DNA from: a virus
Direction: 5' to 3' (one strand)
IMG/VR virus record: IMGVR_UViG_3300048583_000028
Location: 1 to 25,179 of that record
Length of the DNA stretch: 25,179 nt
Shown here: one piece after another, positions 8,957-25,179 of the stretch
Layout: the number at the start of each line of letters is the position of its first letter
Numbering within the stretch: position 1 is the stretch's first letter
Translations under genes and position numbers: made by a program
The notes under the pieces: generated by a model
Database searches by the model: none
Told to the model about the DNA's origin: nothing
What the model saw: the letters and a program-made list of their open reading frames with translations, nothing else

Positions 8957-11047
8957 TTACTTGGTTGTTTTTCCAGTCTTGGAAGATGTCTTTGTCTGTT
9001 GTTTCTGTAATTTAGCTTGCTCCTCTTGGTGGCGCATTTTCTGTTGATGTTGCTGCTCACTCTGCGTAAGCTGTTGGTTTACCTTCGCCTGCTCTGTGGC
9101 AGAGAAAATACGCTGTTTATGAACACTAATTGCTGCATCCATTTTAGCAGCCATTGCTTGCATCTGAGCATTTTGCTCTTGCTTTTGCATTTCCATTGCT
9201 TGCTTGGTAGCTTGATCCCGGGCCGCTAGCTCGGAAGTAAACTGTTTCTGCTGCATATCCATCTGAGCTTTCTGCTGCTCAATCTGGCCCTTCATCTGCA
9301 TTTCTTGCAGCTTAGGGTCAGGAGGTGGCTGAAACTCACCAGTTTGTTGGATTTGCTTGTTAAAGAGTCGTTCGATAGAAGGCTGTTCTTGGGCTTCTAG
9401 CACACGGCGGACAACCTCAACTGGGTCAAGGATGCCGGTGGGAAGAAGCTCTAGCAGACCCTGTGCCTTCATAAGCTTTTCAGTTTGTGTAGGAGTCGAA
9501 GGATCAGCACTGGGACATACATTGTAGTCTTTGTTGCTAAAGTCTTCTGGGCCAATTGGACCATCCAACACACTCTGGTATTTTTGCATATCCAGATAAA
9601 TGCTGTTTAGGGTAAACAGCTTTTTGTATTCTTGCTTTAGGGCGCGGTAAATACGTTTGTAGACAGCCGTAAACACCTTCATACCCTGCTCAATGGTAGC
9701 CATTGTTGTAGTGGCTGGAGTGTTCTGGCCGGGCATTTTACCCGTAAAAATTTCAGCCACAGAAGCTAGTTCTTTGCCTGAGGTAACCAGAGTACCCATG
9801 AGTTGAAATAGTACTGCTGAGGGTTCTTTAGCTGGCAATGGCATGACTTGCTTACGCAGGTCGTCTGCCGTATTCTGTACTGTCTTCCACTCACCGGGCT
9901 TCCATGTGGTGTCGCCCATCTTGAGTTTTAGTCCTTTACCCAGGAAGCCCCCATTTAGATTACTTAGGGTACCAGCATCAATAAGCTGGTTAATAAGGGT
10001 GTTAACTGACTCGTTTAATGGAGAAAGTAAAAGCCCAAAACCAATGTCATAAAACCCGCCATCAGGATTAGGAATAAAAGAAAATTTGGTGTAATATTGG
10101 ATAGCATCAATCTTTTGCAGGTCGCCCGTGTCTTCATCAACATACATTGTCGTTTCATCAAAACGTGGAACAATGCGCACCACCTTTTTACTTACACGCT
10201 CAAAGGTAATGACATATGGCTCAGCATAACCATCGTCGTCCATGTCGAAATAAGTGTGCTGTTCAATGAACTGGTATGGCATTGTAGCGTCTTGTACAAC
10301 CGCTGTGTTGGTACCATCCCGCTGCCAAGGAGTTGGCTCACCAAGGTCAATATCCAGATAAATACCAGACATCTGACGTTCTTTAACTTGACGCTTGTTT
10401 AGCTCAATGACTTGGGAAACACGCTCAGCGGTTTCCAGGCTTTTGGCCCAGTAGTTAACCACAATGTCTTTGGGCAGAATAAGCTCAGAAACATTATGCT
10501 TAAGCACTGGGTTGTAATAGGTCTTCTTAAACAAAGTGCCCACAATGGGCAGCATGATGAGAAGCTTGTCCATGTCCTCTTCCCACCCAGTCATCTCATT
10601 CAGAAGCTGGTAGGAAAGGAACTTGGCAACACGTTTAGCTTGATCTAGCTTAAAGCCTTGTGGGTCATATCCAATAACTTCACATTTAACAATGTCCCCT
10701 GTGGAGGGGAGTAGGGAAGGGTATGCACGCGCATTGAACTGCATTGCTGCTGTAGACAGCAGAGGATATTTAACGTTGCTCGCTCCCACCCAAGGCCAGG
10801 ATTTTTCTTCTCTTACCTGTAAGGCAAGGTTGGTCCATTCGGTAAGGCACTTTTCCCAGTGGGCTCTCGAACGTAAATCGTACTCAAATCCATCAGAAAC
10901 CTGTTGGGAAATCTCCTCCAGTTTCTCGTCGTCGAGCTTCTCCGCAATATTCTTGGATTCCAAGAATGCTCGTAAAGATTGCTCTTCAGTATCCTGTCCA
11001 GGCGCTTCTTCCTGCATTTCCGGTGTTTGATTCATGTAGTTGTTCAT
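8957..11047 (-). CDS. Portal protein
   Basis: A protein of about 700 residues forming the dodecameric DNA entry pore. Typical features are YPLLSTAAMQFNARAYPSL (about residues 99-117 of the longest frame), a long central alpha/beta portal body, and a C-terminal Gln-rich coiled coil (about 590-690) rich in Q, K, M and E, likely the barrel or crown. Start choice is uncertain. The open frame extends to TTG at 11065 with AAGGAAG almost touching it. ATG codons at 11047 and 11035 give MNNYMNQTPE or MNQTPE starts. All overlap the large terminase 3' end by 50-80 nt. It lies between terminase and GroES, the normal packaging-head gene order. Confidence 0.85.
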   Translation of the reverse strand: MNNYMNQTPEMQEEAPGQDTEEQSLRAFLESKNIAEKLDDEKLEEISQQVSDGFEYDLRSRAHWEKCLTEWTNLALQVREEKSWPWVGASNVKYPLLSTAAMQFNARAYPSLLPSTGDIVKCEVIGYDPQGFKLDQAKRVAKFLSYQLLNEMTGWEEDMDKLLIMLPIVGTLFKKTYYNPVLKHNVSELILPKDIVVNYWAKSLETAERVSQVIELNKRQVKERQMSGIYLDIDLGEPTPWQRDGTNTAVVQDATMPYQFIEQHTYFDMDDDGYAEPYVITFERVSKKVVRIVPRFDETTMYVDEDTGDLQKIDAIQYYTKFSFIPNPDGGFYDIGFGLLLSPLNESVNTLINQLIDAGTLSNLNGGFLGKGLKLKMGDTTWKPGEWKTVQNTADDLRKQVMPLPAKEPSAVLFQLMGTLVTSGKELASVAEIFTGKMPGQNTPATTTMATIEQGMKVFTAVYKRIYRALKQEYKKLFTLNSIYLDMQKYQSVLDGPIGPEDFSNKDYNVCPSADPSTPTQTEKLMKAQGLLELLPTGILDPVEVVRRVLEAQEQPSIERLFNKQIQQTGEFQPPPDPKLQEMQMKGQIEQQKAQMDMQQKQFTSELAARDQATKQAMEMQKQEQNAQMQAMAAKMDAAISVHKQRIFSATEQAKVNQQLTQSEQQHQQKMRHQEEQAKLQKQQTKTSSKTGKTTK

Positions 11048-12488
11048 AGTAGTAGTCGTCTTCAACTTCCTTATCAGTTTGAGCTTCTATTAAAGAGTCG
11101 AGCATCATGCCTAAATAAGCTGAAGCATCTACTTGGTCATCCTTGGTTCCGCGAGGAAACTTCTTAAGTTCATCTTCATAGGCGGGATACCAGTCCCCAG
11201 CCTTATCAAACTTAACTGTTTTAGCACGCATACGAGCTTGAATTGACCGTGCTCTTGCAATTTTATCCTTGCCATTGTGTTTTAGGGGTACAATGGAGGG
11301 GTAGATTCCAGTTTTTACCATTTCTTCTCGCAAAAAGGGTCCAATGGACTTAGATACTTGCATTTCTTCAATGCCAAATATCTGAGGCTCATAGACTTTA
11401 TGCAGATTCATGATGGTATCGACTATTTCTCGTCCATCCAACCGTTCACGGATAACTTGCCTTACGTGCAAAATCCGATTCTCGTCCAGTCCTGCCACGA
11501 CAAATACTGAGTAGTCGGCTTGGGATTCCTTGGAAATAGCCAAGTCGGCTGCCACATAGTAATTGAGTCGCATTTTCTTATCTTCAGGTGTTTCAGCCAT
11601 AAAATCGGCTGTTTTGAAGTAGGAAATGGACTCATCAATGGGAATATTTAGGTATTCTTGGGAGTAAACATCGGGCAAACCCCGCTCAATAAAGTCCTGC
11701 CGCTTGCTTACAAACCAGTCTTTATTGTAGTTTTCAGGCCAAAGAATGTGCTCAAAGTCATCGCTGTGGGCTCTGTACTTTAGGGACAACCACTCCCCCC
11801 GAGTTACGTCTTTTTTGTACGTTTTAAGGGGTGTAACGACTGTGCGCTTGTCCCACTCGCTAGGCATTAGGTTGTTTAGGAAACTATCCTCATGGAGAAT
11901 GGTTCCTACAATTCTAATGACACCATGAATGGCAAGACAGGGAATTACAGCACCATAGAACCATCGCTTGAACTTGTCTCGGCGGTCTTTGTTGAGAACA
12001 ATTTCATCATTCTCTAGGTCGTCCCCTACAATGAGGTCAGGCCGTTTGCTGTTCCACTTAAGACCCCGCATTTTTTGCTCACTGCCTTTGGCAGCAATGC
12101 GAAACTCATGCCCATCTTCACACAAAACAATGACATCATCTTCGGTGTCTTTGGTAAACTCCTTGATTTTGAATAGGCTCTTTACCTTTTCATTGTCAAT
12201 GAGTTGTCGCTTAATGTCTGCTAGGAATTGAGTTGCCTGAGCAATAGTGTCAGATATAAGAAGAACATAACTACGTTCACGAAAGCATACGCTTGCAAGA
12301 ACATAAGCCAGGGATACTGCGGTGCTTTTTGCATGAAGTCTGGGGGCGGCTATCGCCACTTTTGCTTGGGTTGAGGTACAATATGTCCACCATTCTAGAT
12401 GGCATTTAGGAGATTCTACTGCGTTGTCAAAACTACTTTGTAAAAGACTACCCGAGAATCCTGCGATTACGTCGGCTGTGAGTATCAT
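10986..12488 (-). CDS. terL: Terminase large subunit (ATPase-nuclease)
   Basis: A 500-residue packaging motor. The ATPase domain has a Walker A variant APRLHAKST at residues 48-56, Walker B DLIVGDDLE at 151-159, and a coupling motif VGTILHEDS at 194-202. The RNase H-like nuclease domain carries AADLAIS (Asp315), FGIEEMQ (Glu374/375) and KDDQVDA (Asp451/Asp454), the expected metal-binding acidic residues. It would dock on the portal, pump DNA and cut concatemers. The start overlaps the HNH gene stop as ATGA. Relative to many homologues the N terminus is short, but all catalytic motifs are present. Confidence 0.93.
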   Translation of the reverse strand: MILTADVIAGFSGSLLQSSFDNAVESPKCHLEWWTYCTSTQAKVAIAAPRLHAKSTAVSLAYVLASVCFRERSYVLLISDTIAQATQFLADIKRQLIDNEKVKSLFKIKEFTKDTEDDVIVLCEDGHEFRIAAKGSEQKMRGLKWNSKRPDLIVGDDLENDEIVLNKDRRDKFKRWFYGAVIPCLAIHGVIRIVGTILHEDSFLNNLMPSEWDKRTVVTPLKTYKKDVTRGEWLSLKYRAHSDDFEHILWPENYNKDWFVSKRQDFIERGLPDVYSQEYLNIPIDESISYFKTADFMAETPEDKKMRLNYYVAADLAISKESQADYSVFVVAGLDENRILHVRQVIRERLDGREIVDTIMNLHKVYEPQIFGIEEMQVSKSIGPFLREEMVKTGIYPSIVPLKHNGKDKIARARSIQARMRAKTVKFDKAGDWYPAYEDELKKFPRGTKDDQVDASAYLGMMLDSLIEAQTDKEVEDDYYYEQLHESNTGNAGRSAWTGY

Positions 12489-12796
12489 TTACCCTTTTTA
12501 GAAATCTGGTTTAGCACACTGCTGTCAGAGTTACGTCTAAACGATCTGTTGCTAGAACGCGACACTACACGCAGATTGCTTTTAGTTGTTTTACCGCCTT
12601 TGGACAAAGGCGTTTTATGGTCAACGTCTTTACCATCGCCTTTGCTAACCTTTCCTGCTTTTTCCATCATACGGCGAGCTTTGTTTTGCTCGACACGTTT
12701 ACGAATGACTTCCGGCTTGGAAGTGTAAAGGTCAACCTCTCTGCGATAATCTCGAACACTTTTACCCGTTTTTGGGTCTTTCTTCATGAACGGCAT
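12485..12796 (-). CDS. Small HNH-type protein next to terminase
   Basis: A 103-residue, very basic protein. Residues 57-86 contain VDHKTPLSKGGKTTKSNLRVVS followed by SRSSNRSFRR. The D-H pair, the 'PLSKGG...NLRVV' strand-turn-helix and the downstream Asn fit the beta-beta-alpha-metal core of phage HNH proteins. The N-terminal half is a charged helix. Small HNH proteins next to terminase genes in HK97-like phages are needed for cos cutting or packaging. By that precedent it may assist the terminase, though a homing nuclease is an alternative. Its stop overlaps the terminase start (ATGA). Confidence 0.75.
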   Translation of the reverse strand: MPFMKKDPKTGKSVRDYRREVDLYTSKPEVIRKRVEQNKARRMMEKAGKVSKGDGKDVDHKTPLSKGGKTTKSNLRVVSRSSNRSFRRNSDSSVLNQISKKGK

Positions 12797-12797
12797 A

Positions 12798-13052
12798 CTA
12801 TTCCTTTGTCAAATACACAGAAGTTTTACCTTTATGGGTGAACACTACTTCTTCAATGTCGTGTTCTTTGACAAATTCAGCCAAACGACGGCGAATGTCT
12901 AATGGAATTTTACCGTGAGCAGCGTAGATGTACAGGCGGGTGCGGTCAGCTTTAAACATGGAAAATACCATGTCAAATTCACTGTTGTCCTCATAGGACC
13001 CAGTTTTGTATCCGCGTACAATCCACTGAACTGGCTCAAAGTGTAGATGCAT
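12798..13052 (-). CDS. Small protein of unknown function
   Basis: An 84-residue protein with an aromatic, His-containing start (MHLHFEPVQWIVRGYKTGSYED) and an alpha/beta-like remainder (RTRLYIYAAHGKIPLDIRRRLAEFVKEHDIEEVVFTHKGKTSVYLTKE). I do not recognise the family. It overlaps the end of the small terminase-like gene by 17 nt and is separated from the HNH gene by one base. Position at the top of the packaging operon suggests a packaging or regulatory accessory role, which the sequence does not prove. Confidence 0.6.
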   Translation of the reverse strand: MHLHFEPVQWIVRGYKTGSYEDNSEFDMVFSMFKADRTRLYIYAAHGKIPLDIRRRLAEFVKEHDIEEVVFTHKGKTSVYLTKE

Positions 13053-13551
13053 TTTCCTTTACCTCGGAAAACGTGATGTCAACCACTTCTCCACTGCCCT
13101 TACGATTGAACTTTGCAAACTCTTTAGCAAGTTGTTGCAAAGTGTCAGAAATATTTTCATCTTTGTGTGCCTCCTTGCTAGCTAGCTCCTCAAGCTTCAC
13201 CTGCTTACCCAGCAAGTCAGAAGCTACCCGAGCTACGTCACGCAGCACAACAGGTTTGGTGATGAATTTACCTGTTTTATTGTTTAGGATTTTCTCCCCA
13301 TTCTCAATGCGATCTTCAACCGCAGCAAGAGCTTTGTCCACAATGCGGGACATCTTGCTGGTCATTTCTGCCCTAGCAGCAGCCCGAATGTCTGTCATCA
13401 TAGAGTGATACCAATCCTGCTTCTTCCAAGCAAGTAGAGTATTGTAGGGAATACCTGACTGTCGGGACACCTCTCGGAGGTTCCCGTAAATCTCGATTTT
13501 CTCAAGAATATCGTACTTTTGTTCGGTACTATAGGATGTTAAAGCAGTCAC
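13036..13551 (-). CDS. Terminase small subunit-like HTH protein
   Basis: A 171-residue helical protein. Residues 8-45 (TEQKYDILEKIEIYGNLREVSRQSGIPYNTLLAWKKQDWY) form a clear helix-turn-helix of the type found in small terminases and transposase-like HTH_23 domains. A long charged helical region follows (about 50-150), suitable for ring oligomerisation. It is the first gene of the leftward packaging operon, two genes before the large terminase. Small terminases bind pac/cos DNA and hand it to the large subunit. It follows a sigma70-like promoter at 13588-13617. The start is ATG at 13551 with a weak leader. Confidence 0.72.
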   Translation of the reverse strand: MTALTSYSTEQKYDILEKIEIYGNLREVSRQSGIPYNTLLAWKKQDWYHSMMTDIRAAARAEMTSKMSRIVDKALAAVEDRIENGEKILNNKTGKFITKPVVLRDVARVASDLLGKQVKLEELASKEAHKDENISDTLQQLAKEFAKFNRKGSGEVVDITFSEVKENASTL

Positions 13552-15235: not shown

Positions 15236-15287
15236 TCTGAATGATGTACACCCTACTGGGAAGGCCAGCGAATGCACCGGTCTAGGG

Positions 15288-15787: not shown

Positions 15788-15791
15788 TATT

Positions 15792-15935
15792 TGGGTGCGT
15801 GCGCACCCATGGGAACATCTAGTAATATTGTGCAACCCTTATGCGAGGGGCACTCTAAATGCTTTCCGAGTGTTTAGAGTGCATCTGCACAATGGCCCGA
15901 CATAATTCGGGAAATGCCAATGGTCATTCACCATT
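15792..15935 (+). ncRNA. Highly structured 5' leader upstream of the GC-rich gene
   Basis: Five inverted repeats lie head to tail. TGGGTGC-GTGC-GCACCCA (15792-15809) is the first. A three-way junction follows, closed by ATTGTGCA/TGCACAAT (15827-15834, 15886-15893), with hairpins CCCT-TATGCG-AGGG (15836-15849) and GCACTCTAAA/TTTAGAGTGC (15850-15859, 15873-15882, perfect 10 bp). Then come CCCG/CGGG (15896-15911) and AATGGT-CATTC-ACCATT (15919-15935). The ribosome site GAGGAAA follows at about 15949. The first hairpin may also terminate upstream transcription. Confidence 0.55.
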
Positions 15936-15957
15936 AATGTTCTAAATGAGGAAAATC

Positions 15958-16596
15958 ATGATTCACTCTCTGCAAACCATCGCTAACACTGGTTCCCTGC
16001 CGATGGTCAAGAAGCCCATTCCGGCACAAGGGCGCGACGCGGTACTTGCAGCTAACATGCTTGCGGCCAGTGTCGTTGCCTATGTCATCGGGCAAGCCGG
16101 GTCGTGGCGCGGTTTCGCGCTGGAAGTCATCGGCCTGACGACCGACGGCCGCGATGCGTACATGGCCACCATGCGTGACTGGCTTAAGGATATGAAGAAG
16201 CGCAACGCTGAAAGCATGGCCGCCGACCCGTCCAACCCGTCCAAAGAAGACAGCAAGGCAGCAGCCAAGCGTGTTGCGTCGGCCACTGTGCAAATTAGCA
16301 ATCTTAATACGATTGCCGAATGCTTCAATGGACAGGGCACCATTGAGGGACTGTGCGCATTCGTTGCCACTAAGCAACGCGTGGCACCGTCCACTGTGGG
16401 CTTGGGCGATTGCTCTTTCGAGATGATGCGGCAATATGCTGTGTCCCTCAAGGCCAGCAAGGCCGGGCGCACGGCTGATACGTGGTGCGTCAAGTTCGCC
16501 AAGTGGGCCGAGAGGAATGCCCCGGCCGACGATGATGTCGAGGGGCTGGCCGCATTCAAGGCAGTCATCGACGCCTTCAACGCGACGCAAGAGTAG
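15958..16596 (+). CDS. GC-rich hypothetical phage protein
   Basis: A 212-residue, Ala-rich soluble protein (MIHSLQTIANTGSLP start). GAGG ends 6 nt before ATG 15958, which favours this start over ATG 15946. Motif-like segments are GRDAVLAANMLAASVVAYVIGQ (about 29-50), ARDAYMATMRDWL-like TDGRDAYMATMRDWLKDM (about 65-82), SATVQISNLNTIAECFNGQGTIEGL and ADTWCVKFAKWAERN. I associate similar proteins with podoviruses, but no function is known to me. GC content and codon choice (GCC, CGC, AAG) are clearly higher than in neighbouring genes, suggesting high expression or recent acquisition. A longer frame on the opposite strand is a GC shadow. Confidence 0.75.
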   Translation: MIHSLQTIANTGSLPMVKKPIPAQGRDAVLAANMLAASVVAYVIGQAGSWRGFALEVIGLTTDGRDAYMATMRDWLKDMKKRNAESMAADPSNPSKEDSKAAAKRVASATVQISNLNTIAECFNGQGTIEGLCAFVATKQRVAPSTVGLGDCSFEMMRQYAVSLKASKAGRTADTWCVKFAKWAERNAPADDDVEGLAAFKAVIDAFNATQE

Positions 16597-16743: not shown

Positions 16744-16938
16744 ATGAATACCGTTTCTTCTCGCGCTTTTGTTGGTGGTAGTGTTGAGGTACTTCGTACC
16801 TTTGCACGTACCAAGCAATTGCACAACACGGGCTTCACGAAAGCCTATACGTGCAGCAATGTCACGAAGGTCGATCATTCCCGGTCGGCACGAAAGGCGC
16901 AGCATGCGGCTCAACGCAATAGCAGCATTGCAGCGTAA
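16744..16938 (+). CDS. Small basic hypothetical protein
   Basis: A 64-residue basic protein (MNTVSSRAFVGGSVEVLRTF ... RKAQHAAQRNSSIAA) with one Cys, no membrane segment and no recognised family. The ATG has only a weak GAAG upstream at 9 nt. It contains the first copy of GGTCGATCAT (16869-16878). The frame extends further upstream, but that part covers the tandem hairpins and is unlikely to be translated. It lies at the head of the small-gene operon. Confidence 0.5.
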   Translation: MNTVSSRAFVGGSVEVLRTFARTKQLHNTGFTKAYTCSNVTKVDHSRSARKAQHAAQRNSSIAA

Positions 16939-16957
16939 CGCCGCTGCGGATTCCGAC

Positions 16958-17149
16958 ATGGTTTGTGGCTGTGGCGAAAGTTACAGCATTAACAGGTTTA
17001 ATGCTGGCTATCGCTGCTGCCTTGTATGTGGGGAAAAATCCTCACGCAAAGTCAAACATACCATTGTCCCGCTGCCCAAAAGCAACTATGTGTATGCACA
17101 TACAGCAGCGGATGTCCTCAGTCCCTACAGTCACAAGGGGAATCGTTAA
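16958..17149 (+). CDS. Small zinc-ribbon-like phage protein
   Basis: A 63-residue protein with CGC at residues 3-5 and CC-x-x-C at 20-24, spaced as a zinc ribbon, then VKHTIVPLPKSNYVYAHTAADVL. The segment 'C-x-x-C-G-E-x4-R-x-V-K-H-T-I-x-P-x-x-K-S-N-Y' matches a small early protein common in podoviruses. Its function is not known to me. ATG 16958 starts directly before the Cys motif, and longer in-frame starts exist but overlap the previous gene. The stop is coupled to the next start as TAATG. Confidence 0.65.
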   Translation: MVCGCGESYSINRFNAGYRCCLVCGEKSSRKVKHTIVPLPKSNYVYAHTAADVLSPYSHKGNR

Positions 17150-17331
17150 TGCAAAACATTCGCACCACATCCGACATTGCAGAACTCCTGTTGGAGCGTC
17201 TGCAAAGTGGGCTTGACGTTAATACAATTAAGGACAGCACAATGACTAGCCTTATGGCCCTGCTCGAAAATGAGTATGCCAACCGTAGGTTTGAAGAACT
17301 ACGGTTATTGGGGGAGGGGTATGATGATTGA
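17149..17331 (+). CDS. Small helical hypothetical protein
   Basis: A 60-residue protein (MQNIRTTSDIAELLLERLQS ... LLGEGYDD), predicted helical, with no recognised family. AAGGGGA lies 7 nt before ATG 17149 and the start overlaps the previous stop as TAATG. The frame is open much further upstream, but the ribosome site and coupling favour this start. It overlaps the next gene by 8 nt. Confidence 0.6.
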   Translation: MQNIRTTSDIAELLLERLQSGLDVNTIKDSTMTSLMALLENEYANRRFEELRLLGEGYDD

Positions 17332-17446
17332 ACTATTCACTAACATTCGTAGTTGGTGGGTGTCGTTGTATGACACATGGGTATGGCTGTTGTCTGGGTC
17401 CGTGGACCCCTTTGGAGACGATGATAATGACAACATTCTCTATTGA
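17324..17446 (+). CDS. Trp-rich 40-residue protein, possibly membrane-active
   Basis: ATG 17324, preceded by GGGGAGGGG, opens a 40-residue frame: MIELFTNIRSWWVSLYDTW, then VWLLSGSVDPFGDDDNDNILY. The first half carries an amphipathic/hydrophobic stretch with four Trp, and the second half is strongly acidic. This looks like a small membrane-associated peptide. No homologue is recognised. It overlaps both neighbours (8 and 20 nt), as expected in this compressed operon. A second ATG three bases upstream (17321) is too close to the ribosome site. Confidence 0.5.
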   Translation: MIELFTNIRSWWVSLYDTWVWLLSGSVDPFGDDDNDNILY

Positions 17447-17621
17447 ACAGTATTCAATATTGTATCAGCCTGGGACACGGCGGCGAGATTACCGCAATGG
17501 ATATTGGACCGTGCTTCGCCCTGATGGTACAATCATGGATGTTAAAATCCTAACCGAAGTGAGTGCAATAAACATGGTTAAAGAACTTAATTATCTTTAT
17601 CTTATTTCTGGGAGGGGTTAA
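17427..17621 (+). CDS. Small hypothetical protein
   Basis: A 64-residue protein (MTTFSIEQYSILYQPGTRRRD ... YLYLISGRG) with GYWTVLRPDGTIMDVKIL resembling a short beta-hairpin fold. It has no Cys and no membrane segment. GGAG is 9 nt before ATG 17427, inside the end of the preceding gene. The open frame reaches back to about 17328, but the upstream residues duplicate coding sequence of the other frame and lack a ribosome site. No family recognised. Confidence 0.6.
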   Translation: MTTFSIEQYSILYQPGTRRRDYRNGYWTVLRPDGTIMDVKILTEVSAINMVKELNYLYLISGRG

Positions 17622-17623
17622 TA

Positions 17624-17698
17624 ATGTATATTAAGTTCTGCTGCCTGTGCGGTAGCACGTTTCATTCAACATCACAATGCCGCTGGAAGCGGCTTTAA
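17624..17698 (+). CDS. 24-residue zinc-knuckle microprotein
   Basis: ATG 17624 has a strong ribosome site (GGAGGGG, 6 nt away) and encodes MYIKFCCLCGSTFHSTSQ plus CRWKRL before TAA. The cysteines and histidine are spaced C6-x2-C9-x4-H14-x4-C19, exactly the CCHC zinc-knuckle pattern, with basic residues after it (RWKR). The zinc knuckle would take up nearly the whole protein. CCHC knuckles usually bind single-stranded nucleic acid. Whether it binds zinc or RNA is inferred from spacing alone. It is too short for routine gene calling but sits cleanly between two genes. Confidence 0.65.
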   Translation: MYIKFCCLCGSTFHSTSQCRWKRL

Positions 17699-17716
17699 TT
17701 TATCTTGGAGAAAATA

Positions 17717-17851
17717 ATGTTTATTCTCTTAATTATTGTGCATATTGTAAGCATGCTGTTTTCTTTGTCAGCAGGTAACATTAGTGCTGCTATATGGACT
17801 TTGAGTAGTTTGATTTGGTGTGGCAACACGTTTAAATGGTCTTTTAATTAA
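17717..17851 (+). CDS. Small single-pass membrane protein
   Basis: ATG 17717 with GGAG 6 nt upstream opens a 44-residue frame: MFILLIIVHIVSMLFSLSAG, then NISAAIWTLSSLIWCGNTFKWSFN. It has one strong hydrophobic segment (residues 2-17) and a second weaker one (24-34). It lies between the zinc-knuckle microprotein and the next gene, 10 nt apart. It could be an early membrane protein such as a host-envelope modifier or superinfection-exclusion peptide, but nothing in the sequence decides this. Confidence 0.6.
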   Translation: MFILLIIVHIVSMLFSLSAGNISAAIWTLSSLIWCGNTFKWSFN

Positions 17852-17861
17852 GGAGAATAAA

Positions 17862-18107
17862 ATGGAAGCTCGTAGACTGGATCACAACACATATGACATT
17901 TTCTTTGGTACCCAATTTTCGCCTTACGGCTCAGGGTGGACCAGAGTAAGGCAAGGTCGCAATGGAACCTACCGCATTGCGGGTGAAAGGGTCGATCATC
18001 AAACCCTGCGCGAACTGGATAGCCTGCTGGCCCCTAACATGCCCATTACCTATGGGCAGGACATGCACACCATGTCCCGTAACTGCTATGCCATTGCCAC
18101 GCGCTAA
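17862..18107 (+). CDS. Small hypothetical protein
   Basis: An 81-residue protein (MEARRLDHNTYDIFFGTQFS ... MSRNCYAIATR) starting at ATG 17862 with AAGGAG 7 nt upstream. The longer frame from GTG 17820 overlaps the membrane-protein gene and lacks a ribosome site. The middle reads as a beta-hairpin (GWTRVRQGRNGTYRIAGERV) followed by a helix. It contains GGTCGATCAT (17990-17999). The stop overlaps a following ATG as TAATG. No family recognised. Confidence 0.65.
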   Translation: MEARRLDHNTYDIFFGTQFSPYGSGWTRVRQGRNGTYRIAGERVDHQTLRELDSLLAPNMPITYGQDMHTMSRNCYAIATR

Positions 18108-18121
18108 TGTGGAGAATTCCA

Positions 18122-18337
18122 GTGACAAAGCCGGTTGTTAATATCAATAATGCCTACATCGAATTTAATTTGCTGTGGGGATATCCTGAAAACTACCCTG
18201 AGGAGCATTGCTATTACCCAGGAGCGGTAACAAATACCAAATTGATTCACACAAGTCCCATTGTGCGTAAAGAAGAGGACTATGTAGAAACTGAGCGTAC
18301 TATTTATTTTGTTAAATCTTGGAACAAAAATGTTTAA
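18122..18337 (+). CDS. Small conserved-type phage protein, GTG start likely
   Basis: GGAG 7 nt before GTG 18122 favours a 71-residue product. ATG 18107 (overlapping the previous stop) would add five residues but has no ribosome site. The sequence TNTKLIHTSPIVRKEEDYVETERTIYFVKSW recalls a small phage protein type with an 'I-x-T-S-P-V ... V-E-T-R-N-x-I-Y' signature, function unknown. The end overlaps the next start by 8 nt. Confidence 0.6.
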   Translation: MTKPVVNINNAYIEFNLLWGYPENYPEEHCYYPGAVTNTKLIHTSPIVRKEEDYVETERTIYFVKSWNKNV

Positions 18338-18638
18338 ACCTTTCTTCATTCATCGTCATCACCTTCCTGGCAAGCTTCCCAATAGACATCCAAGAGGGTT
18401 TACTGCATACATTGAAGAAGCACAAGACAGTAACAATGTGCTGATGCGTGTTGCACTGTGTAGTCCTAAAGACCAGTATTCACGCAAAGAAGGTCGATCA
18501 TTCGCCCGTGTTGCTGTGCAGGAAACCATCAACAAGCGTCAACTACCCCGCATCCTGGCTGGGCTGGAGTATATGTGCGAACTGGATGACACCATTAACG
18601 AGAACTCTTGGTACTATGTGTACAAGTATGTTTTGTAA
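18330..18638 (+). CDS. Conserved-type small phage protein
   Basis: A 102-residue protein from ATG 18330 (MFKPFFIHRHHLPGKLPNRH). Motif-like parts are the CSPKDQYSRKEGRSFARVAVQE stretch and the ending NSWYYVYKYVL. This 'CSPKDxFxxKxGR...YYxYKYV' arrangement is one I associate with small early-region proteins of several phages; function unknown. GGTCGATCAT at 18492-18501 lies inside it in a different reading frame from the other copies. Longer TTG starts are unlikely. Confidence 0.65.
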   Translation: MFKPFFIHRHHLPGKLPNRHPRGFTAYIEEAQDSNNVLMRVALCSPKDQYSRKEGRSFARVAVQETINKRQLPRILAGLEYMCELDDTINENSWYYVYKYVL

Positions 18639-18659
18639 CTTATTTGAAGCGAACGACAA

Positions 18660-19121
18660 ATGATTAGCCACAGCATTGTTGTTAAAGAAGTTAAAAGCAA
18701 TGTAGTCCCGTGGGTTGATCCCCGATCACCACGCATTACAGACAATGCTTCTCTTTCTAAGTATTTAGAGTCCATGCCATTTGCTGAAGGCGACTTTGTT
18801 TGTTATGGGCAAAGCAGCGTGCATATGTTGGGCCAATGTTTGCTTGTTTGTGATGTGGAACGAGATTTCAAATACTTGACTTTTACAAGCTACAATAATT
18901 TTCCTAAAGTCCTGCAAATTCTCAGCATGGGCTCGGTTGATTATCCGCAAGCCCAATTGTTTAAACGCTGGGATAGTTGCGAAGCATTCCGTATTATGAC
19001 TAAAGAGGAAATTAATAAACTTATTACACCTAAATATGATCTCATACTCGATCGTTGTAAAGAACACATCGGATCAGAAATTCTCGCCAAACTCGAAGCG
19101 TATCGAGCCGTCCAATCCTGA
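18660..19121 (+). CDS. Hypothetical protein with MISxSIVVK start (paralogue A)
   Basis: A 153-residue acidic/neutral protein starting MISHSIVVKEVKSN, followed by YLESMPFAEGDFVCYGQSS, a beta-rich middle and a helical C terminus (MTKEEINKLITPKYDLILDRCKEH). No known family recognised. The N-terminal 9 residues and the 'S-x-P-F/Y-x-E-x-D' segment match the product at 19036-19347. Its last 86 bases overlap that gene in another frame. The ribosome site is weak. Confidence 0.65.
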   Translation: MISHSIVVKEVKSNVVPWVDPRSPRITDNASLSKYLESMPFAEGDFVCYGQSSVHMLGQCLLVCDVERDFKYLTFTSYNNFPKVLQILSMGSVDYPQAQLFKRWDSCEAFRIMTKEEINKLITPKYDLILDRCKEHIGSEILAKLEAYRAVQS

Positions 19122-19347
19122 GTATAGGCCATATATATTGCAGCGTAGCATTAATGCGTTGCCATATAAGGAAAATGATAGGGTTAAAGTAAGGCGTTCA
19201 TCACGAAGGGGCACTATTGTAAGCGTAGAACACAATTCAGATTTAGTAACGTGGATTTCTAATAAACCACATTACATTAGAGTGTTGTTTGACGATGGCA
19301 TCATGCAACATTGCCATCATTCTCAACTTAAACGGAGTAAACTGTAA
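19036..19347 (+). CDS. Hypothetical protein with MISxSIVVK start (paralogue B)
   Basis: A 103-residue basic protein starting MISYSIVVKNTSDQ, with SINALPYKENDRVKVRRSSRRGTIVSVE and a Tudor/SH3-like strand pattern (DRVKV...GTIVSV...YIRVLFDDGIMQ). The first 86 bases overlap the end of 18660-19121 in another frame and encode almost the same N terminus (MIS[H/Y]SIVVK), so the far-upstream start looks real despite a weak ribosome site. The stop overlaps the next start (TAATG). Confidence 0.6.
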   Translation: MISYSIVVKNTSDQKFSPNSKRIEPSNPEYRPYILQRSINALPYKENDRVKVRRSSRRGTIVSVEHNSDLVTWISNKPHYIRVLFDDGIMQHCHHSQLKRSKL

Positions 19348-19670
19348 TGACACCTTATGTTGTTGTTCGTGTCGATGATGACAAGATTTGCCGTGGCTCT
19401 TTCAATGCCCCCGGCTGGCTGGGCGGTAATGTTATTTATAATCTAATGGTTCAGGAAGAACACACTGATTACAGTGGGGATATGAGTAATAAGGTTAATT
19501 ACTATCAAGCTAACACGCTTGAAGTTGCTCGTGCCTTGGCAAACAAACTTGCCGAGCGATATGTGGGTACTGCATGGGCTGTTGCACAATGTTCCGAAGT
19601 TATTCGTTCTGAGCCCGGCCCCATTACCCGTGCTGTGTTTACTGACCAGGGCTTGATGCCTGCTACTTAA
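19347..19670 (+). CDS. Hypothetical protein
   Basis: A 107-residue protein (MTPYVVVRVDDDKICRGSFN ... FTDQGLMPAT), alpha/beta in appearance with a helix near residues 57-70 (LEVARALANKLAERY). GGAG is 9 nt before ATG 19347, which overlaps the previous stop as TAATG. No family recognised. It precedes the amidotransferase-linked genes by a short gap. Confidence 0.65.
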   Translation: MTPYVVVRVDDDKICRGSFNAPGWLGGNVIYNLMVQEEHTDYSGDMSNKVNYYQANTLEVARALANKLAERYVGTAWAVAQCSEVIRSEPGPITRAVFTDQGLMPAT

Positions 19671-19679
19671 GGATATTAA

Positions 19680-19901
19680 ATGAGCGATGTAGTTTCGTAT
19701 GGTATGGGTACTTGGAAAAAGCGTAAGCTTACTAAGAATGCCCGAGCTAGTCGTGAAAGTGGTAAGAAGAAGGGTCTTGTGCCCCCTACGTGGGCAAAGA
19801 ATTGTGCCAAAGCATCACGGGCATATAAGAACAATCCGCGATATGCTGAGTGGTGCATCAAGTGTGATGGTAATAAAGTTAAATGGGGGAGTGCATCGTA
19901 A
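19680..19901 (+). CDS. Small very basic protein coupled to the amidotransferase
   Basis: A 73-residue, Lys/Arg-rich protein (MSDVVSYGMGTWKKRKLTKN ... CDGNKVKWGSAS). It has a basic region at residues 13-35 and WCIKCDGN near the C terminus, a possible half zinc site. The charge suggests nucleic-acid binding. The stop overlaps the class I amidotransferase start as TAATG, so the two are made together. No family recognised. Confidence 0.6.
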   Translation: MSDVVSYGMGTWKKRKLTKNARASRESGKKKGLVPPTWAKNCAKASRAYKNNPRYAEWCIKCDGNKVKWGSAS

Positions 19902-20527
19902 TGCGCCTAGTATCTGCTTTGTATGAAGACTTTCATCCTTTCAATCACATGCACATCTTTGATGACACAGCATGTGCAAGGGAAGCGGATAACATGCGTG
20001 AGGGTGATGTGCTTATTGTGCATGGTGGGGGCGACATCTCTCCTGCCCTATATAACAAGCAACTAAGCCCAATGGGCCATGGTGATGTTGAACCTAACCG
20101 GCGCGATAAGGCCGAATGGTCGATCATGCAACGTGCCCAGGAACTGAAAGTCCCCATCATCGGGTTGTGTCGTGGTGGTCAGATGCTCACTGCTCTGGCT
20201 GGTGGGTACCTTATTCAGCATATTAATAACCACTACGGCACACATCCAGTGCTAACTGCGGACAATAAAGTATTCCACGTCAACAGTATTCACCATCAGA
20301 TGATGGTGCCCGATGGTACGGATCATGAGCTTATTGCATGGTCCAAGCACCAGCTTTCCGATGAATATTGGGACGAGGATAATATTGTTAACCGAGACAT
20401 TGAGCCAGAGTTTATTTACTATCCATCCCTTAAGGGTTTTGCTATTCAATGGCATCCTGAAATGATGGCCGCAGACAGCCCTGCCAATCGTTACCTTATG
20501 TCTTTTATTCATGGGAAAATCAAATGA
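19901..20527 (+). CDS. Class I glutamine amidotransferase / peptidase C26-like hydrolase
   Basis: A 208-residue protein with all marks of the GATase1 fold. HGGGDISP (41-48) corresponds to the 'xGGxDxxP' loop of gamma-glutamyl-GABA hydrolases (PuuD-like). GLCRGGQ (88-94) holds nucleophile Cys90. VNSIHHQ (127-133) is the 'VNSxHHQ' strand, and QWHPEMM (183-189) carries the catalytic His185 and Glu187. Such enzymes hydrolyse gamma-glutamyl amides or glutamine, releasing ammonia or trimming gamma-glutamyl groups. Start ATG 19901 has GGGGAG about 9 nt upstream and is coupled to the previous gene. In this context it probably works with the amidoligases downstream. GGTCGATCAT (20118) lies inside. Confidence 0.9.
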   Translation: MRLVSALYEDFHPFNHMHIFDDTACAREADNMREGDVLIVHGGGDISPALYNKQLSPMGHGDVEPNRRDKAEWSIMQRAQELKVPIIGLCRGGQMLTALAGGYLIQHINNHYGTHPVLTADNKVFHVNSIHHQMMVPDGTDHELIAWSKHQLSDEYWDEDNIVNRDIEPEFIYYPSLKGFAIQWHPEMMAADSPANRYLMSFIHGKIK

Positions 20528-20835
20528 GTATCTTGTTTTTTAAATGGGTAGAGACCATGGGTAATTGGCCGGCGTTTACTCAGATACCTCCAAAATTTAA
20601 ATACAACAGTTACGAGGACTGGAAGCCCAGTGAATGCTGTGGATCATTGTTTACCGAGTCAAACAACGGTAAAAATAAAGGCATAACCATTTGGTTTTCA
20701 GATAAAAACGAGGCTGAAGAACACCCTGATTTTTTCATTGAGTCCGTTAAACTTGTTAATGGACAATATATGCACTTCAAGCATTGTTTAATTGAAGAAC
20801 AACGTGACGAACCGGAGGAGGATGAAGAATGGTAG
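20524..20835 (+). CDS. Hypothetical acidic protein
   Basis: A 103-residue protein (MSILFFKWVETMGNWPAFTQ ... EPEEDEEW) with CC at 38-39, a strongly acidic C-terminal tail and no recognised family. ATG overlaps the amidotransferase stop as ATGA, and its end overlaps the next gene by 7 nt, placing it inside the amide-chemistry operon. Confidence 0.6.
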   Translation: MSILFFKWVETMGNWPAFTQIPPKFKYNSYEDWKPSECCGSLFTESNNGKNKGITIWFSDKNEAEEHPDFFIESVKLVNGQYMHFKHCLIEEQRDEPEEDEEW

Positions 20836-21293
20836 TCGCAGAAAGTGCTCCTGTAATGATCGCTGATGCTCCCGTAGTCGCTGAGACCACTCTGCTAAAT
20901 GTCTGTAGTGTGCACTACAACTCCGTGGCTTCTATTACGGACAAATCGCTAATTAAAATCCATGAATATATTGAGCCTATTCGGTATTGGCGTCAATACA
21001 GTTGGGGAAGCTGCACAGCAGGATACACCCTCTCGGAGGAACAAGCCACTGTTAAACGTCTGGAGGACGGGCAATGGTTTAAAACCAAGTTTGTTGACCA
21101 TTGTAATAAAGGGTGGTACTATCAATTCATTGTGACTACCCAGCAACTGGAATGCTTTATGGAGGACATTGAGAAGTTTGATTTTATTAAGTACATGGTG
21201 TATAAAAGCAAACAGCCCGCTGTTAATGGTAATTATCTTTACGAAGGGCCGAAGCTTCATGCGTTTCTTTTCTATATCCCGGAGGATAAATGA
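20829..21293 (+). CDS. Hypothetical protein
   Basis: A 154-residue protein with an Ala/Val-rich start (MVVAESAPVMIADAPVVAET), then a mixed alpha/beta body with several aromatics (RYWRQYSWGSC, GWYYQFIV) and the end LHAFLFYIPEDK. The start follows a GGAGGA ribosome site. The stop overlaps the next ATG (ATGA). No family recognised. Confidence 0.6.
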   Translation: MVVAESAPVMIADAPVVAETTLLNVCSVHYNSVASITDKSLIKIHEYIEPIRYWRQYSWGSCTAGYTLSEEQATVKRLEDGQWFKTKFVDHCNKGWYYQFIVTTQQLECFMEDIEKFDFIKYMVYKSKQPAVNGNYLYEGPKLHAFLFYIPEDK

Positions 21294-21463
21294 GTCTAGT
21301 AATTCGAGGAATTGAAAACTATTATGGAGATGAGTCTTTTGACGAAATTAGTCCCGATTACTATGGTGTCTTTGATGGGGTTGCGTTGTATGCCTATCAA
21401 TGGCTTGCCGCTTTTCGTAGTAAAGAAGACGCTGAATTGTTTTTAAAAATTAAGGACCAATAA
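21290..21463 (+). CDS. Small acidic hypothetical protein
   Basis: ATG 21290, with GGAGG 4 nt upstream and overlapping the previous stop as ATGA, opens a 57-residue frame. It runs MSLVIRGIENYYGDESFDEI, then SPDYYGVFDGVALYAYQWLA, then AFRSKEDAELFLKIKDQ. It is acidic and Tyr-rich, with a C-terminal helix. The stop is coupled to the next start (TAATG). No family recognised, but ribosome site and coupling on both sides make it a real gene. Confidence 0.7.
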   Translation: MSLVIRGIENYYGDESFDEISPDYYGVFDGVALYAYQWLAAFRSKEDAELFLKIKDQ

Positions 21464-21675
21464 TGTACGTTGTACATTTGGAATGCAACCGAGAAGGCGA
21501 ATTTGAATTCAACGGAGAAACACAGAACCACACGTTTGAAACTCTAGGTAAAGCAAGAAAGTTTATTAAGGAAATTTATGAAGATCATCGGCATGATTAT
21601 TATCCTCCTCTAACTCTTGAAGAATCTAAAGAAGAACTTGGTGAAGCAACTATTTACAAACTGGAGAAAGTCTAA
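21463..21675 (+). CDS. Small hypothetical protein coupled to the amidoligase
   Basis: A 70-residue acidic protein (MYVVHLECNREGEFEFNGET ... EATIYKLEKV). A beta-strand start is followed by a helix (LGKARKFIKEIYEDHRHDYY). Both ends are coupled by TAATG, to the previous gene and to the COOH-NH2 ligase. No family recognised. Tight coupling suggests it may be a partner or carrier for the ligase, but that is unproven. Confidence 0.6.
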   Translation: MYVVHLECNREGEFEFNGETQNHTFETLGKARKFIKEIYEDHRHDYYPPLTLEESKEELGEATIYKLEKV

Positions 21676-22457
21676 TGTTTACCCTTGGCGCTGATCCCGA
21701 ATGTTTCCTGATTGATGCGGCTGGTGCTTTCATTAGTGCCATTGACCTTGTAGGTGGTACTAAAGAGCACCCCATTCCGTTGCCCATTGGTGATGGGTTT
21801 GCAGTGCAGGAAGACAATGTGGCATTGGAATACAATGTTCCACCTGCTGCTAGTAAAGACCAGTTTGTTAACAACATTAACAAGGTGATGTCCTACTTGT
21901 CCGATCAGATGGGCCAGAAGGGCTTGTATCTTTCACGTGCATCTGCTACACTGTTCCCTGAGGAACAATTGGTCGATCATCGTGCTCGTACCTTCGGCTG
22001 TGATCCTGACTTTAATGCGTGGCGGGATGGCAAAGCCAACAAGCGTCCAAAGGCTACTGATGCGACGCTGCGTACCTGTGGCGGGCATGTCCACATTGGG
22101 TATCAATTCAAGAGCGAAGCAGAGGTCATTAGTTTTATTAAGTATTGTGACCTGTTCTTGGGTGTGCCTAGCGTTATTCTGGATGATGGCGCACTGCGTA
22201 AGGAACTGTATGGCAAGGCCGGTGCATTCCGTTTCAAGCCATATGGTTGTGAATATCGTACCCTGTCTAATTTCTGGGTTGTTGACCCGGCATATACGGC
22301 ATGGGCTTGGAGTGCAACAGAAATGGCTATGGACGCATGGCAACAAAATAAGATTAATGTTGAACTCGAAGGCCCGGCCATTGTACATGCCATTAATAAG
22401 AATAACCGCAGCGTTGCGCAAGAACTCATTGACCGTTACACCCTTCCTATGGCGTAA
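21675..22457 (+). CDS. phiEco32-like COOH-NH2 ligase, type 2 (amidoligase)
   Basis: A 260-residue enzyme of the glutamine-synthetase/GCS-like amidoligase fold. Signature segments are GADPE (5-9), GDGFAVQEDNVALEYN (39-54; Glu46 and Glu52 likely metal/ATP-binding), FGCDPDFNAW (107-116), CGGHVHIGY (135-143; His138 and His140) and FRFKPYGCEYRTLSNFW (185-201; Arg186, Glu193, Arg195). These match the phage phiEco32-like COOH-NH2 ligase family. Members are predicted to form amide bonds between a carboxylate and an amine using ATP; the true substrate is unknown. The start is coupled to the previous gene (TAATG). GGTCGATCAT lies at 21971. Confidence 0.9.
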   Translation: MFTLGADPECFLIDAAGAFISAIDLVGGTKEHPIPLPIGDGFAVQEDNVALEYNVPPAASKDQFVNNINKVMSYLSDQMGQKGLYLSRASATLFPEEQLVDHRARTFGCDPDFNAWRDGKANKRPKATDATLRTCGGHVHIGYQFKSEAEVISFIKYCDLFLGVPSVILDDGALRKELYGKAGAFRFKPYGCEYRTLSNFWVVDPAYTAWAWSATEMAMDAWQQNKINVELEGPAIVHAINKNNRSVAQELIDRYTLPMA

Positions 22458-22465
22458 GCAATACA

Positions 22466-23068
22466 ATGCGTGATACATACACATCTGAAAATCATCGGGA
22501 CTTCAATGCCCGATATGCATACACCTTTGGCTGGCTAGTGCAAGGTGATAAGCAAAGTCTTGTACATCTACAAGAAGGTGATGAAGAGTGCTTTAAGTTT
22601 ACTAAAGGCACTACGCAAACCTACACTGCGTACATTGATGGCGGTGCCATCTTTGAATTTATCCCTATTAAAATGGGTTGGTTCAATGCCAACGATGGGC
22701 ACATTATCTTTCTTGAAAGGCATCCTGCGCGTCAATGGAAGCGTGGTATTTGCACAGAAAATACTTGGGCTTACATTCATACGCCATGGGGCATTGTAGC
22801 AGAACGTGTTTCCTATCAACTGCTGGAGTCCATCTTCGTAAATCCCATTAAAGTCGATAAGGAGCTTATTCTTAACAAAGTAAATGCATCCTTGCCAGTA
22901 GCACTTTCCCAACATTTTGCTGTTGCAAACAGGGCTGTGTATTTGTATAAAACAATAATTGCCACCATTGATAATAATGTTATTACCATGCGTAATGACA
23001 TTGTGAAACAAGAATTGTCGGATTGTATTAGGCGTTTGGGCCTAGATTGGAGCATCAAGAGTGAGTAA
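22466..23068 (+). CDS. Hypothetical protein between the two amidoligases
   Basis: A 200-residue protein (MRDTYTSENHRDFNARYAYT) with a beta-rich first half (AYIDGGAIFEFIPIKMGWF, HIIFLERHPARQWKRGICTEN, AYIHTPWGIVAERVSYQLL) and a helical second half. No family recognised. It starts eight bases after the COOH-NH2 ligase and overlaps the Amidoligase_2 gene by 8 nt, so it is probably a dedicated partner such as a substrate or regulatory subunit. The ribosome site is weak. Confidence 0.6.
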   Translation: MRDTYTSENHRDFNARYAYTFGWLVQGDKQSLVHLQEGDEECFKFTKGTTQTYTAYIDGGAIFEFIPIKMGWFNANDGHIIFLERHPARQWKRGICTENTWAYIHTPWGIVAERVSYQLLESIFVNPIKVDKELILNKVNASLPVALSQHFAVANRAVYLYKTIIATIDNNVITMRNDIVKQELSDCIRRLGLDWSIKSE

Positions 23069-24134
23069 ACTTAGCGAAATCTTTTCCTATAGTCCACTAG
23101 AAACGTGGAGTTCCAAGGCTAGTGCAGCATATCCCACTGGCCCTGATCCTCTGCTAGTTATGGGCGTGGAGCTTGAGATTGAAAACACCAGCCAAGAAGC
23201 TGGAGATATGCGAGGATTCCGTACTGAACGAGACGGTAGCTTGCGTAACAATGGTTGGGAATTCATTACCCTGCCTATGTACTACAACAATCTGAGTGAG
23301 CGGCTTGACAAATTCTTTGCAGCTAATAAATTTAATGAGACTAATTATAGTGAACGCTGCTCGGTACATGTGCATGCCAATTGCCGTGACCTTACGCTTG
23401 ACCAAGTATCGGCTATTGTTCTTATCTATCAGGCCGTAGAAAAGTTGTTGTTTAATTTTATTGGCAACGACCGGGATAAGAATATTTTCTGTGTGCCTCT
23501 CTCTGAAACTACCATTACCTATCGCTTTGTTGAGAGGCTTAGTGAAGGTAACTGGAATGTGTTCCGTGACTGGAATAAGTACACGGCACTAAACCTTATG
23601 CCGCTGTGTAATGTAGATCAAGGCACCATTGAGTTCCGTCATATGGCTGGTACATGTGACGTTGAATTTATTAAGGCATGGCTTCGTATTATTAGCCGTA
23701 TTTTTGCCGCAGTGCGTGAAACAACTCTTGATGAATGGAAAGAACGCCTTGTAAATCTAAATAGCAATTCTCGCTATCATGGACTGTTGCTTGATGTGTT
23801 CAAGGAGGAGGCAACTTATCTGCTTACCCCTGGGTATGAGTCCTTGCTTGAAGAAGGTGTACTGCTTCTAAAGTATAGTCTCATGGGTCGAGACAAGCCT
23901 AGAGCTAAGACAGTAACTCGGATTAACGATGCAGACGCTGTTGCAGAACTATTGTTTAATAACAATAATATAACTGCTGCTAATCCAATGCCAGTAAACT
24001 CTACGTTTGATTATCAAGTAGCTATTGCCAGAATTCGGGGCCTGGAACGCCGGCCACGAGGCATGCCGGCGCAATGGTTTATAGAAGATACACCAGCTAA
24101 TCCGGCTCCTCCTAACGAAGAAAGGTCTTTCTAA
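23061..24134 (+). CDS. Amidoligase_2 family enzyme, GTG start
   Basis: A 357-residue protein starting at GTG 23061 with GGAG 8 nt upstream. Family motifs are GVELEIEN (35-42, metal-binding acidic strand), DGSLRNNGWEFIT (58-70), the paired histidines in CSVHVHAN (100-107), YTALNL (174-179) and GTIEFRHMAGT (188-198; Glu and Arg typical of the ATP site). It belongs to the putative amidoligase enzymes predicted to make gamma-glutamyl or peptide-like amide bonds. The C-terminal 80 residues are Pro/Asn-rich and probably disordered. Together with the type 2 ligase it gives two distinct ligases in one operon. Confidence 0.88.
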   Translation: MSKLSEIFSYSPLETWSSKASAAYPTGPDPLLVMGVELEIENTSQEAGDMRGFRTERDGSLRNNGWEFITLPMYYNNLSERLDKFFAANKFNETNYSERCSVHVHANCRDLTLDQVSAIVLIYQAVEKLLFNFIGNDRDKNIFCVPLSETTITYRFVERLSEGNWNVFRDWNKYTALNLMPLCNVDQGTIEFRHMAGTCDVEFIKAWLRIISRIFAAVRETTLDEWKERLVNLNSNSRYHGLLLDVFKEEATYLLTPGYESLLEEGVLLLKYSLMGRDKPRAKTVTRINDADAVAELLFNNNNITAANPMPVNSTFDYQVAIARIRGLERRPRGMPAQWFIEDTPANPAPPNEERSF

Positions 24135-24153
24135 TACTCGCAAATTTATTTAA

Positions 24154-24215
24154 TGTTCACAAAAACACTGTGAACAGCTTACTTAATTTTAAACATTGGA
24201 AGCACCTATAAGGTG
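24154..24215 (+). promoter_or_regulatory. Two hairpins ahead of the class II amidotransferase
   Basis: TGTTCAC/GTGAACA with a 9-nt loop (24154-24176) and CACCT-ATA-AGGTG (24203-24215) lie in the 97-nt gap, the longest inside this operon. The first could attenuate transcription. The second sits just upstream of the GGAG ribosome site and unusual start codon. Confidence 0.45.
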
Positions 24216-24231
24216 TCATGGAGATTTTATT

Positions 24232-25179
24232 ATTTGTGGAATTGTGGGCCTAATCACAGGCTTTTCTAATGGACTTACCGTAGATGAAACTCGAACGTTC
24301 CGTGATATGCTTCTTATTGATACTCTTCGGGGCTTCGATAGCACTGGTGTTTTTGGTGTGGACTATGATGGTAACGTAGAAGTATTAAAGGAAGCCTCTA
24401 ACGGCGCGTCGTTTGTACAAACGTTTGACTATAAAGTATTCGATAGTTGGATTTGTTCACGCGGTATGTTTGTTGTCGGTCATAATCGCGCTGCAACACG
24501 TGGGTCGATCACGGACAAGAACGCCCATCCGTTTGTTATTGAAGACAACATTGTGCTTGTACAGAATGGTACGTACAAGGGTGACCACTCTCACCACAAA
24601 GACACTGAGGTAGACACTGAGGCAGTGGCTCATGTGCTGCATGAAGAACCTGATGTGGAGAAAGCCCTTCAGAAAATTAATGCAGCATATGCTCTGGTGT
24701 GGTACAATGTTAAAGACAAGACTCTCAACATTATTCGTAATGACGAGCGGCCGTTGTATATTGCATACACTAAGCAAGGTGCCATTATCTTTGCCAGTGA
24801 AATGGAAACCATTCTTGCAGCATGCTCTCGTAATAATGTAACTCTGAAGTCTCAGCCGTACCTGCTTAAAGAGCACATGCTTAACACATGGACTCTTAAT
24901 GATGAAAAACGTACCTGGGATTTTGATAATAAAGCCATTGATAATAAATACAGGGGGTCACCTTTTCAACAACAATATGACTACTCAGAATGGAACATTG
25001 GCAAAGGCTTTCGCTCGCATTATCGGCAGCTTTCTAATGAAAGCAATACGGTAACTAAATCCAACGAAGTTGCATCTACTATTTTTGAATATGTGCATAA
25101 AGGCACCTTTATGGATAAGATGATGACTATTCAACAGTGTGATGAGTATAAAGATAAACTGCGTAATAAAAAGATTCTC
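24232..25179 (+). CDS. Class II (Ntn) glutamine amidotransferase, AUU start, C-terminus beyond window
   Basis: The frame gives (M)CGIVGLITG at the N terminus; Cys2 becomes the nucleophile after Met removal. Supporting motifs are LRGFDSTG (32-39), GHNRAATRG (83-91), NAHPF (97-101), QNGTY (111-115), RNDERPLYIA (169-178) and FASEMETIL (187-195), the GlmS/PurF/AsnB glutaminase signature. No ATG, GTG or TTG immediately precedes the Cys. The codon is ATT (24232-24234), with GGAG 8 nt upstream. The only in-frame upstream alternative is TTG 24196, which would bury the Cys and has no ribosome site. The frame stays open to the end (316 codons). It would supply ammonia from glutamine, perhaps with a synthetase domain beyond the window. 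GGTCGATCAC is at 24503. Confidence 0.88.
   Translation, partial: MCGIVGLITGFSNGLTVDETRTFRDMLLIDTLRGFDSTGVFGVDYDGNVEVLKEASNGASFVQTFDYKVFDSWICSRGMFVVGHNRAATRGSITDKNAHPFVIEDNIVLVQNGTYKGDHSHHKDTEVDTEAVAHVLHEEPDVEKALQKINAAYALVWYNVKDKTLNIIRNDERPLYIAYTKQGAIIFASEMETILAACSRNNVTLKSQPYLLKEHMLNTWTLNDEKRTWDFDNKAIDNKYRGSPFQQQYDYSEWNIGKGFRSHYRQLSNESNTVTKSNEVASTIFEYVHKGTFMDKMMTIQQCDEYKDKLRNKKIL

Follow-up and report, generated by a model that had tools for sequence, protein, structure and literature searches.

What is the function of a ten-base word that is repeated on one strand and in one arm of a phage genome? The window, i.e., the whole stretch of 25,179 nucleotides that was analysed (IMG/VR record IMGVR_UViG_3300048583_000028), is a 25 kb fragment of its genome. 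A megablast search of phage records with the window gave no match, and tRNA and Rfam scans of it found nothing. Single-strand interruptions in phage DNA are puzzling and have been known since the 1960s from few phages. By analogy with the Pseudomonas phages tf and Rembedalsseter, we consider it likely that GGTCGRTCAY is where a strand-specific nicking endonuclease encoded by the phage acts and that the packaged DNA is interrupted there. A strand-specific nickase would recognise GGTCGRTCAY, the predicted cut would be GGTCG/ATCAY by alignment with TACT/RTGMC of tf, and the packaged DNA would carry localized single-strand interruptions at the words. A small HNH protein (12485-12796, minus) is a candidate for the cutting. 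We infer the nicking of the sites, its timing and the responsible protein, in contrast to the word, its strand bias, its recurrence, the gene plan and the spacing.

The window and its repeated word

On the left arm of the window, the minus strand encodes the tail spike, the major head protein, the portal and the terminase. The plus strand of the right arm contains early genes and an amidoligase cluster in the order class I glutamine amidotransferase, COOH.NH2 ligase, amidoligase and class II amidotransferase. The cluster proteins share about 27-62% identity with their counterparts in uncultured relatives and in the cultured Alcaligenes phage vB_Af_QDWS535 (QDWS535). The features are as follows.

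8957..11065, minus: portal protein (phrog_1216)
10986..12488, minus: terminase large subunit (phrog_38)
12485..12796, minus: small HNH endonuclease, candidate nickase, between the terminase genes (phrog_4590)
13036..13551, minus: probable terminase small subunit (phrog_1482, weak, E 0.0026)
16869..16878, plus: predicted nick site GGTCG/ATCAT, first rung
17990..17999, plus: predicted nick site GGTCG/ATCAT
18492..18501, plus: predicted nick site GGTCG/ATCAT
19883..20527, plus: class I glutamine amidotransferase (phrog_7218)
20118..20127, plus: predicted nick site GGTCG/ATCAT, within the class I glutamine amidotransferase gene
21675..22457, plus: COOH.NH2 ligase, as tf_19 (phrog_3815)
21971..21980, plus: predicted nick site GGTCG/ATCAT, within the COOH.NH2 ligase gene
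23061..24134, plus: amidoligase, as tf_21 (phrog_7469)
24196..25179, plus: class II glutamine amidotransferase, as tf_22, truncated at the end of the window (phrog_4736)
24503..24512, plus: predicted nick site GGTCG/ATCAC

At the junction of the arms, about 1.7 kb (14230-15940) contains palindromes and T-rich repeats and has few plausible genes; judged against tf, this is probably the genome-end and early promoter region. Next to it lies an endonuclease VII/HNH-like gene (13668-14219, plus), which is found in three other relatives only, at scattered places, and is probably a mobile (homing-type) endonuclease. A pair of 37-base repeats, 78% identical (13601-13637 and 14191-14227), each with a TTGACA-TATAAT-like promoter, stands just before and at the end of this gene.

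The initial annotation had reported five exact copies and one single-mismatch copy of the word, in the rightward arm only and on one strand, and all of them were recovered: GGTCGATCAT starts at 16869, 17990, 18492, 20118 and 21971, and GGTCGATCAC at 24503, on the plus strand. The minus strand and the rest of the window have zero copies even when one mismatch is allowed, so that the count is 6 vs 0 and not equal on both strands. GGTCGATCAT is the commonest 10-mer in the window. Markov models of order 1-3 for the whole window expect it 0.011-0.014 times, P(>=5) is about 1e-12, and this becomes about 1e-6 after correction for a million words; the word is indeed far above chance, as had been claimed. 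It was also correct that more than one reading frame is involved, because the coding copies use all three. Protein constraint does not explain the copies either: the nine-base core, GGTCGATCA, was observed 6 times on the plus strand and 0 times on the minus strand, vs 0.13 and 0.01 in synonymous-codon shuffles, and the maximum in 200 shuffles was 2 copies. The codon-aware expectation, with which the annotation proposed a comparison, is thus not matched by the count. A few GTCGGTCA copies are coding coincidences, e.g., at window 24475, where the class II amidotransferase has its conserved VGHNR, but these controls and the recurrence of the word in independent, diverged genomes make chance or codon usage an extremely improbable explanation of the whole.

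A family of words in relatives

A blind strand-asymmetry scan listed strand-biased 8-10-mers in each genome. In tf, the proven nick word ranks first of all 8-10-mers (TACTGTGACG, 9/0 by strand). GGTCGATCA was found 8/0 in G005, 8/0 in G006 and 6/1 in G003, GGTATCATC 7/0 in G021, and GCTATCATC 10/1 in other contigs. In QDWS535, GGTCGATCA occurs 11/0 (GGTCGRTCAY, 11 vs 0). The count in relatives that had been proposed therefore gave a word that recurs on one strand, i.e., the short asymmetric one-strand repeat of the tf type that is also seen in the window (6/0). Since unrelated repeats score as high or higher in some genomes, a scan restricted to NNNNRTSA is the cleaner test. When the 512 NNNNRTSA words were ranked, GTCGRTCA was best in seven genomes of the window clade and TACTRTGA was best in tf and LUZ24. 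The sites of QDWS535, several of which lie outside annotated genes, are as follows.

Near 47879, 46552, 45443, 44917, 43794, 42851, 42240, 40436, 39348, 35548 and 27896, minus: GGTCGATCAY sites (record OK172329)

Words of other forms are found in further relatives. In Zobellviridae, TACTATCA occurs 8/2 in Vibrio phage 1.293.O, 8/1 in T2S1 and 6/0 in ICP2, and GCTATCA occurs 9/0 in phage CVT22; TACT/ATCA, GCT/ATCA and GGT/ATCA are the forms in other relatives. In the GCT/ATCA group the words are weaker, and their reverse copies in the late arm resemble codon effects. All these words align as variable/RTSA, and both A and G are allowed directly after the cut, in the GTCGRTCA and TACTRTGA families alike. 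The consensus of the window clade is rrGGTCG/ATCAY (39 sites, six genomes), and conservation stops at about 12 bases. The C in the last place, as at 24503..24512, is common in relatives too (11 of the 39 sites). GATC and TCGA, which the initial annotation had noted in each copy, are both absent from GGTCGGTCAY, the form used by some relatives, and the methylation-sensitive site that had been suggested is thereby disfavoured.

The nick motif of Rembedalsseter is found 13/0 by strand. No such word was found in phiEco32, despite its amidoligase cluster and HNH homologue. Since controls contain the pelagiphage word TTGGGTCA as well, it is probably codon-driven and was rejected as a nick word. G014 has an inverted, diverged early-region copy at the left of its contig (L078, 1-5640), in which separate GGTCGGTCA sites are present on the other strand; the reverse copies in G014 appear to stem from it, and it is either a chimera or a true duplication. 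In G005, an intein that contains a LAGLIDADG homing endonuclease splits the ribonucleotide reductase gene (L063:9466-12051).

Strand, turnover and spacing of the sites

Five of the six window copies sit in predicted early genes on the sense strand, as would be expected of a transcript-level element, i.e., an RNA processing, antitermination or translation signal. However, late-arm copies in G005, G006, G021 and G036 keep their strand, which makes them antisense to late genes, and in two lineages the words are on the strand opposite to the early genes: G002 has five bottom-strand AGGTCGGTCAT-like copies, and G045 has GCTATCAY 0/7. An RNA tag, which the initial annotation had listed among four possible roles, is accordingly very unlikely. 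G002 and G045, with few copies each, are suggestive of a switch of the marked strand from lineage to lineage.

Another of the four roles was regulatory, with the word bound by a phage regulator, for example as a promoter or operator element. Strand-biased words can be promoters, as the top strand-biased words of T7 are, three CCTACTCCGG nick words of phiKMV (L130 6323, 13995 and 24137) lie within annotated phage promoters, and the QDWS535 sites outside annotated genes point the same way. On the other hand, most copies in the window and in relatives are inside genes, some of them antisense to late genes, about 12 conserved bases are too short for a T7-type promoter, the words of G002 and G045 face against early genes, and the proven tf nick word has the same layout. 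Together with the graded spacing described below, this makes a regulator site unlikely.

Presence of the sites is kept, as judged from the sequences, while their place is not. The COOH.NH2 ligase gene has a site in three of seven relatives, none at the codon used in the window, and in orthologous genes the site codons differ from relative to relative. The spacing of the sites follows a rule. In 12 of 12 genomes and in all word classes, inter-site gaps tend to become larger the farther the sites are from the genome end (Spearman rho 0.45-1.00, mean 0.84, reached by 0 of 3001 permutations), with a growth of about 1.2-1.6-fold per step; other strand-specific 8-mers, used as a control, show a slight trend too (mean rho 0.15). 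A density gradient is already known for the tf group (PMC11780129), and the widening ladder across groups is not described in the cited nick papers (PMC3517423, PMC11780129). Because the ladder widens from one end, it suggests that the role of the nicks may be tied to that end, in packaging or entry.

The last of the four roles, marking one strand for recombination or packaging, comes nearest, because the word behaves like a DNA element tied to one strand and resembles mapped nick sites in both form and position. A host signal for recombination or against degradation, Chi-like or of another kind, would be read by a host protein and enriched on one strand, and it would likewise have one-strand orientation and repeats independent of reading frame. 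However, among related phages the word varies in parallel with nick words of the tf type, and its density follows the phage genome end, so that a host signal of this kind is quite improbable.

A candidate nicking enzyme

If the words are nick sites, which protein cuts them? The HNH protein of the window has about 100 residues and matches the phrog_4590 profile with E 5.7e-19; the invariant residues of phrog_4590 HNH (D59, H60, N74 and N83) place it in the family. Proteins of tf (16126-16413), ICP2 and HTVC025P are phrog_4590 members too. All near-complete genomes in which the word is clear have the HNH, as do tf and Rembedalsseter, in both of which nicks were measured. In G006, G007, G012 and G014, the word is present and the HNH was not detected; since a homologue of the preceding portal gene was not found in them either, the HNH/portal stretch is probably missing from these four contigs. 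The location of the gene varies: it is beside the terminase in the window, in the late operon in Zobellviridae, and in the early arm in tf. The predicted fold of the HNH (pLDDT 79) matches HNH nucleases with weak E-values, the top match being 4h9d, the Gme HNH nicking endonuclease (Foldseek probability 0.89, E 0.57, 28 residues covered).

The N-terminal part of the HNH divides phages with TACT/ATCA from those with GCT/ATCA; over 20 genomes the permutation p is 8e-6, with shared ancestry ignored. Salinivibrio phage CW02, in which the word GCTATCA is weak (4/1), has a GCT-type N-terminus and a 1.293.O-like C-terminal part. A simple rule, in which R[DN]Y..EY..Y goes with TACT/ATCA, was rejected; it holds in ICP2, 1.293.O, T2S1 and G036, but fails in VP41s3, the IMG/VR group and MedS30C28.

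HNH relatives were found in at least 586 IMG/VR contigs. No comparable word was found in 14 long HNH-bearing IMG/VR contigs, phiEco32 or VP41s3; because many HNH-bearing phages are without the word, the HNH fails to predict it outside these groups. Predictions of words in marine Autographiviridae were mixed (HTVC025P 0/5; P-RSP2 2/7; rank about 150th among pooled 8-mers). The phrog_4590 homologue of phiEco32, phi32_58 (L132 42583-42900), has DVGH in place of DVDH, i.e., Gly replaces the Asp before the catalytic His in a phage with no detectable nick word, and from its sequence a loss of function is possible. HNH partners of terminases are known in packaging (HK97 gp74), and by analogy phrog_4590 HNH may have a general packaging role instead.

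Two other proteins were rejected as the nickase. A homologue of the metallophosphoesterase (phrog_221) was not found in the word-bearing G029, G030 and G036, and the HNH at 13668-14219 occurs in only three other genomes. On sequence grounds, phrog_4590 HNH is the leading candidate, an assignment that we put a little short of an even chance. The fuller proposal, which we advance tentatively and with somewhat less assurance, is that it would be the long-sought nickase, that its N-terminus would read the 5' half of the site, which varies (TACT, GCT, GGT or GTCG), next to a fixed 3' RTSA, that enzyme and sites would co-evolve, and that the sites would lie on a ladder with gaps widening from one genome end. 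A link between HNH and nicks, or nick words of Zobellviridae, was not found in openly licensed literature.

Comparison with known nicked phages

Among phages with known interruptions, T5 (major nicks at R/GCGCRGG; sciA, sciB) has single-chain interruptions in one strand as well, but from its description the word and the phage are unrelated to the window; its nicking genes were reported in the late region (PMC3517423). The phiKMV group (CGACxxxxxCCTA/CTCCGG) likewise has strand-specific interruptions at a repeated word, which differs in being longer, and phrog_4590 HNH was not found in phiKMV. The interruptions of phikF77 are reportedly repaired early and are back again late (PMC3517423). In Rembedalsseter, the motif WACTRTGAC has been linked to a loss of Nanopore coverage that is strand-specific (PMC11780129). 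It is confined to one strand, as in the window, and this phage carries the HNH, whereas its word and phage group are different.

The closest parallel is Pseudomonas phage tf, whose DNA has 14 mapped single-strand nicks at TACT/RTGMC with 3'-OH and 5'-P ends that ligase can seal (PMC3517423). The tf word in its explicit form, TACTGTGAC, is the counterpart of GGTCGATCAT. The window shares with tf and LUZ24-like phages a short asymmetric one-strand word of about 6-14 copies, mostly inside genes, an uneven distribution, densely packed in the early arm and with few copies in the late arm, and the small phrog_4590 HNH gene. It shares with tf the two-arm gene plan, as the window reads across the tf genome ends, and the amidoligase cluster; the arm and strand of its words match those of the tf nicks, which are mostly in that arm, and sci13 and sci14 of tf are likewise antisense to late genes with the same strand kept. 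The two differ in the word, which is GGTCG/RTCAY in the window and has only ..C.RT.A. in common with that of tf, and the window sites are known from sequence alone; TACTRTGMC is absent from the window. phmmer found zero matches to tf structural proteins in the relatives or the window, which by this mark fall outside the LUZ24-like group. No enzyme is named for tf-type nicks in the cited papers (PMC3517423, PMC11780129).

Nicked genomes are thus predicted in new groups, i.e., Zobellviridae, the QDWS535 clade and uncultured relatives, and a common site form (variable/RTSA) is proposed for nick words. The widening spacing is a rule that any account of nick function has to explain, and a small cloneable protein and the cultured phage QDWS535 make the enzyme and the nicks testable. 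In comparison with the known systems, what is new here is most likely a different word, found across a far wider set of phages; strand-specific self-nicking itself is already known.
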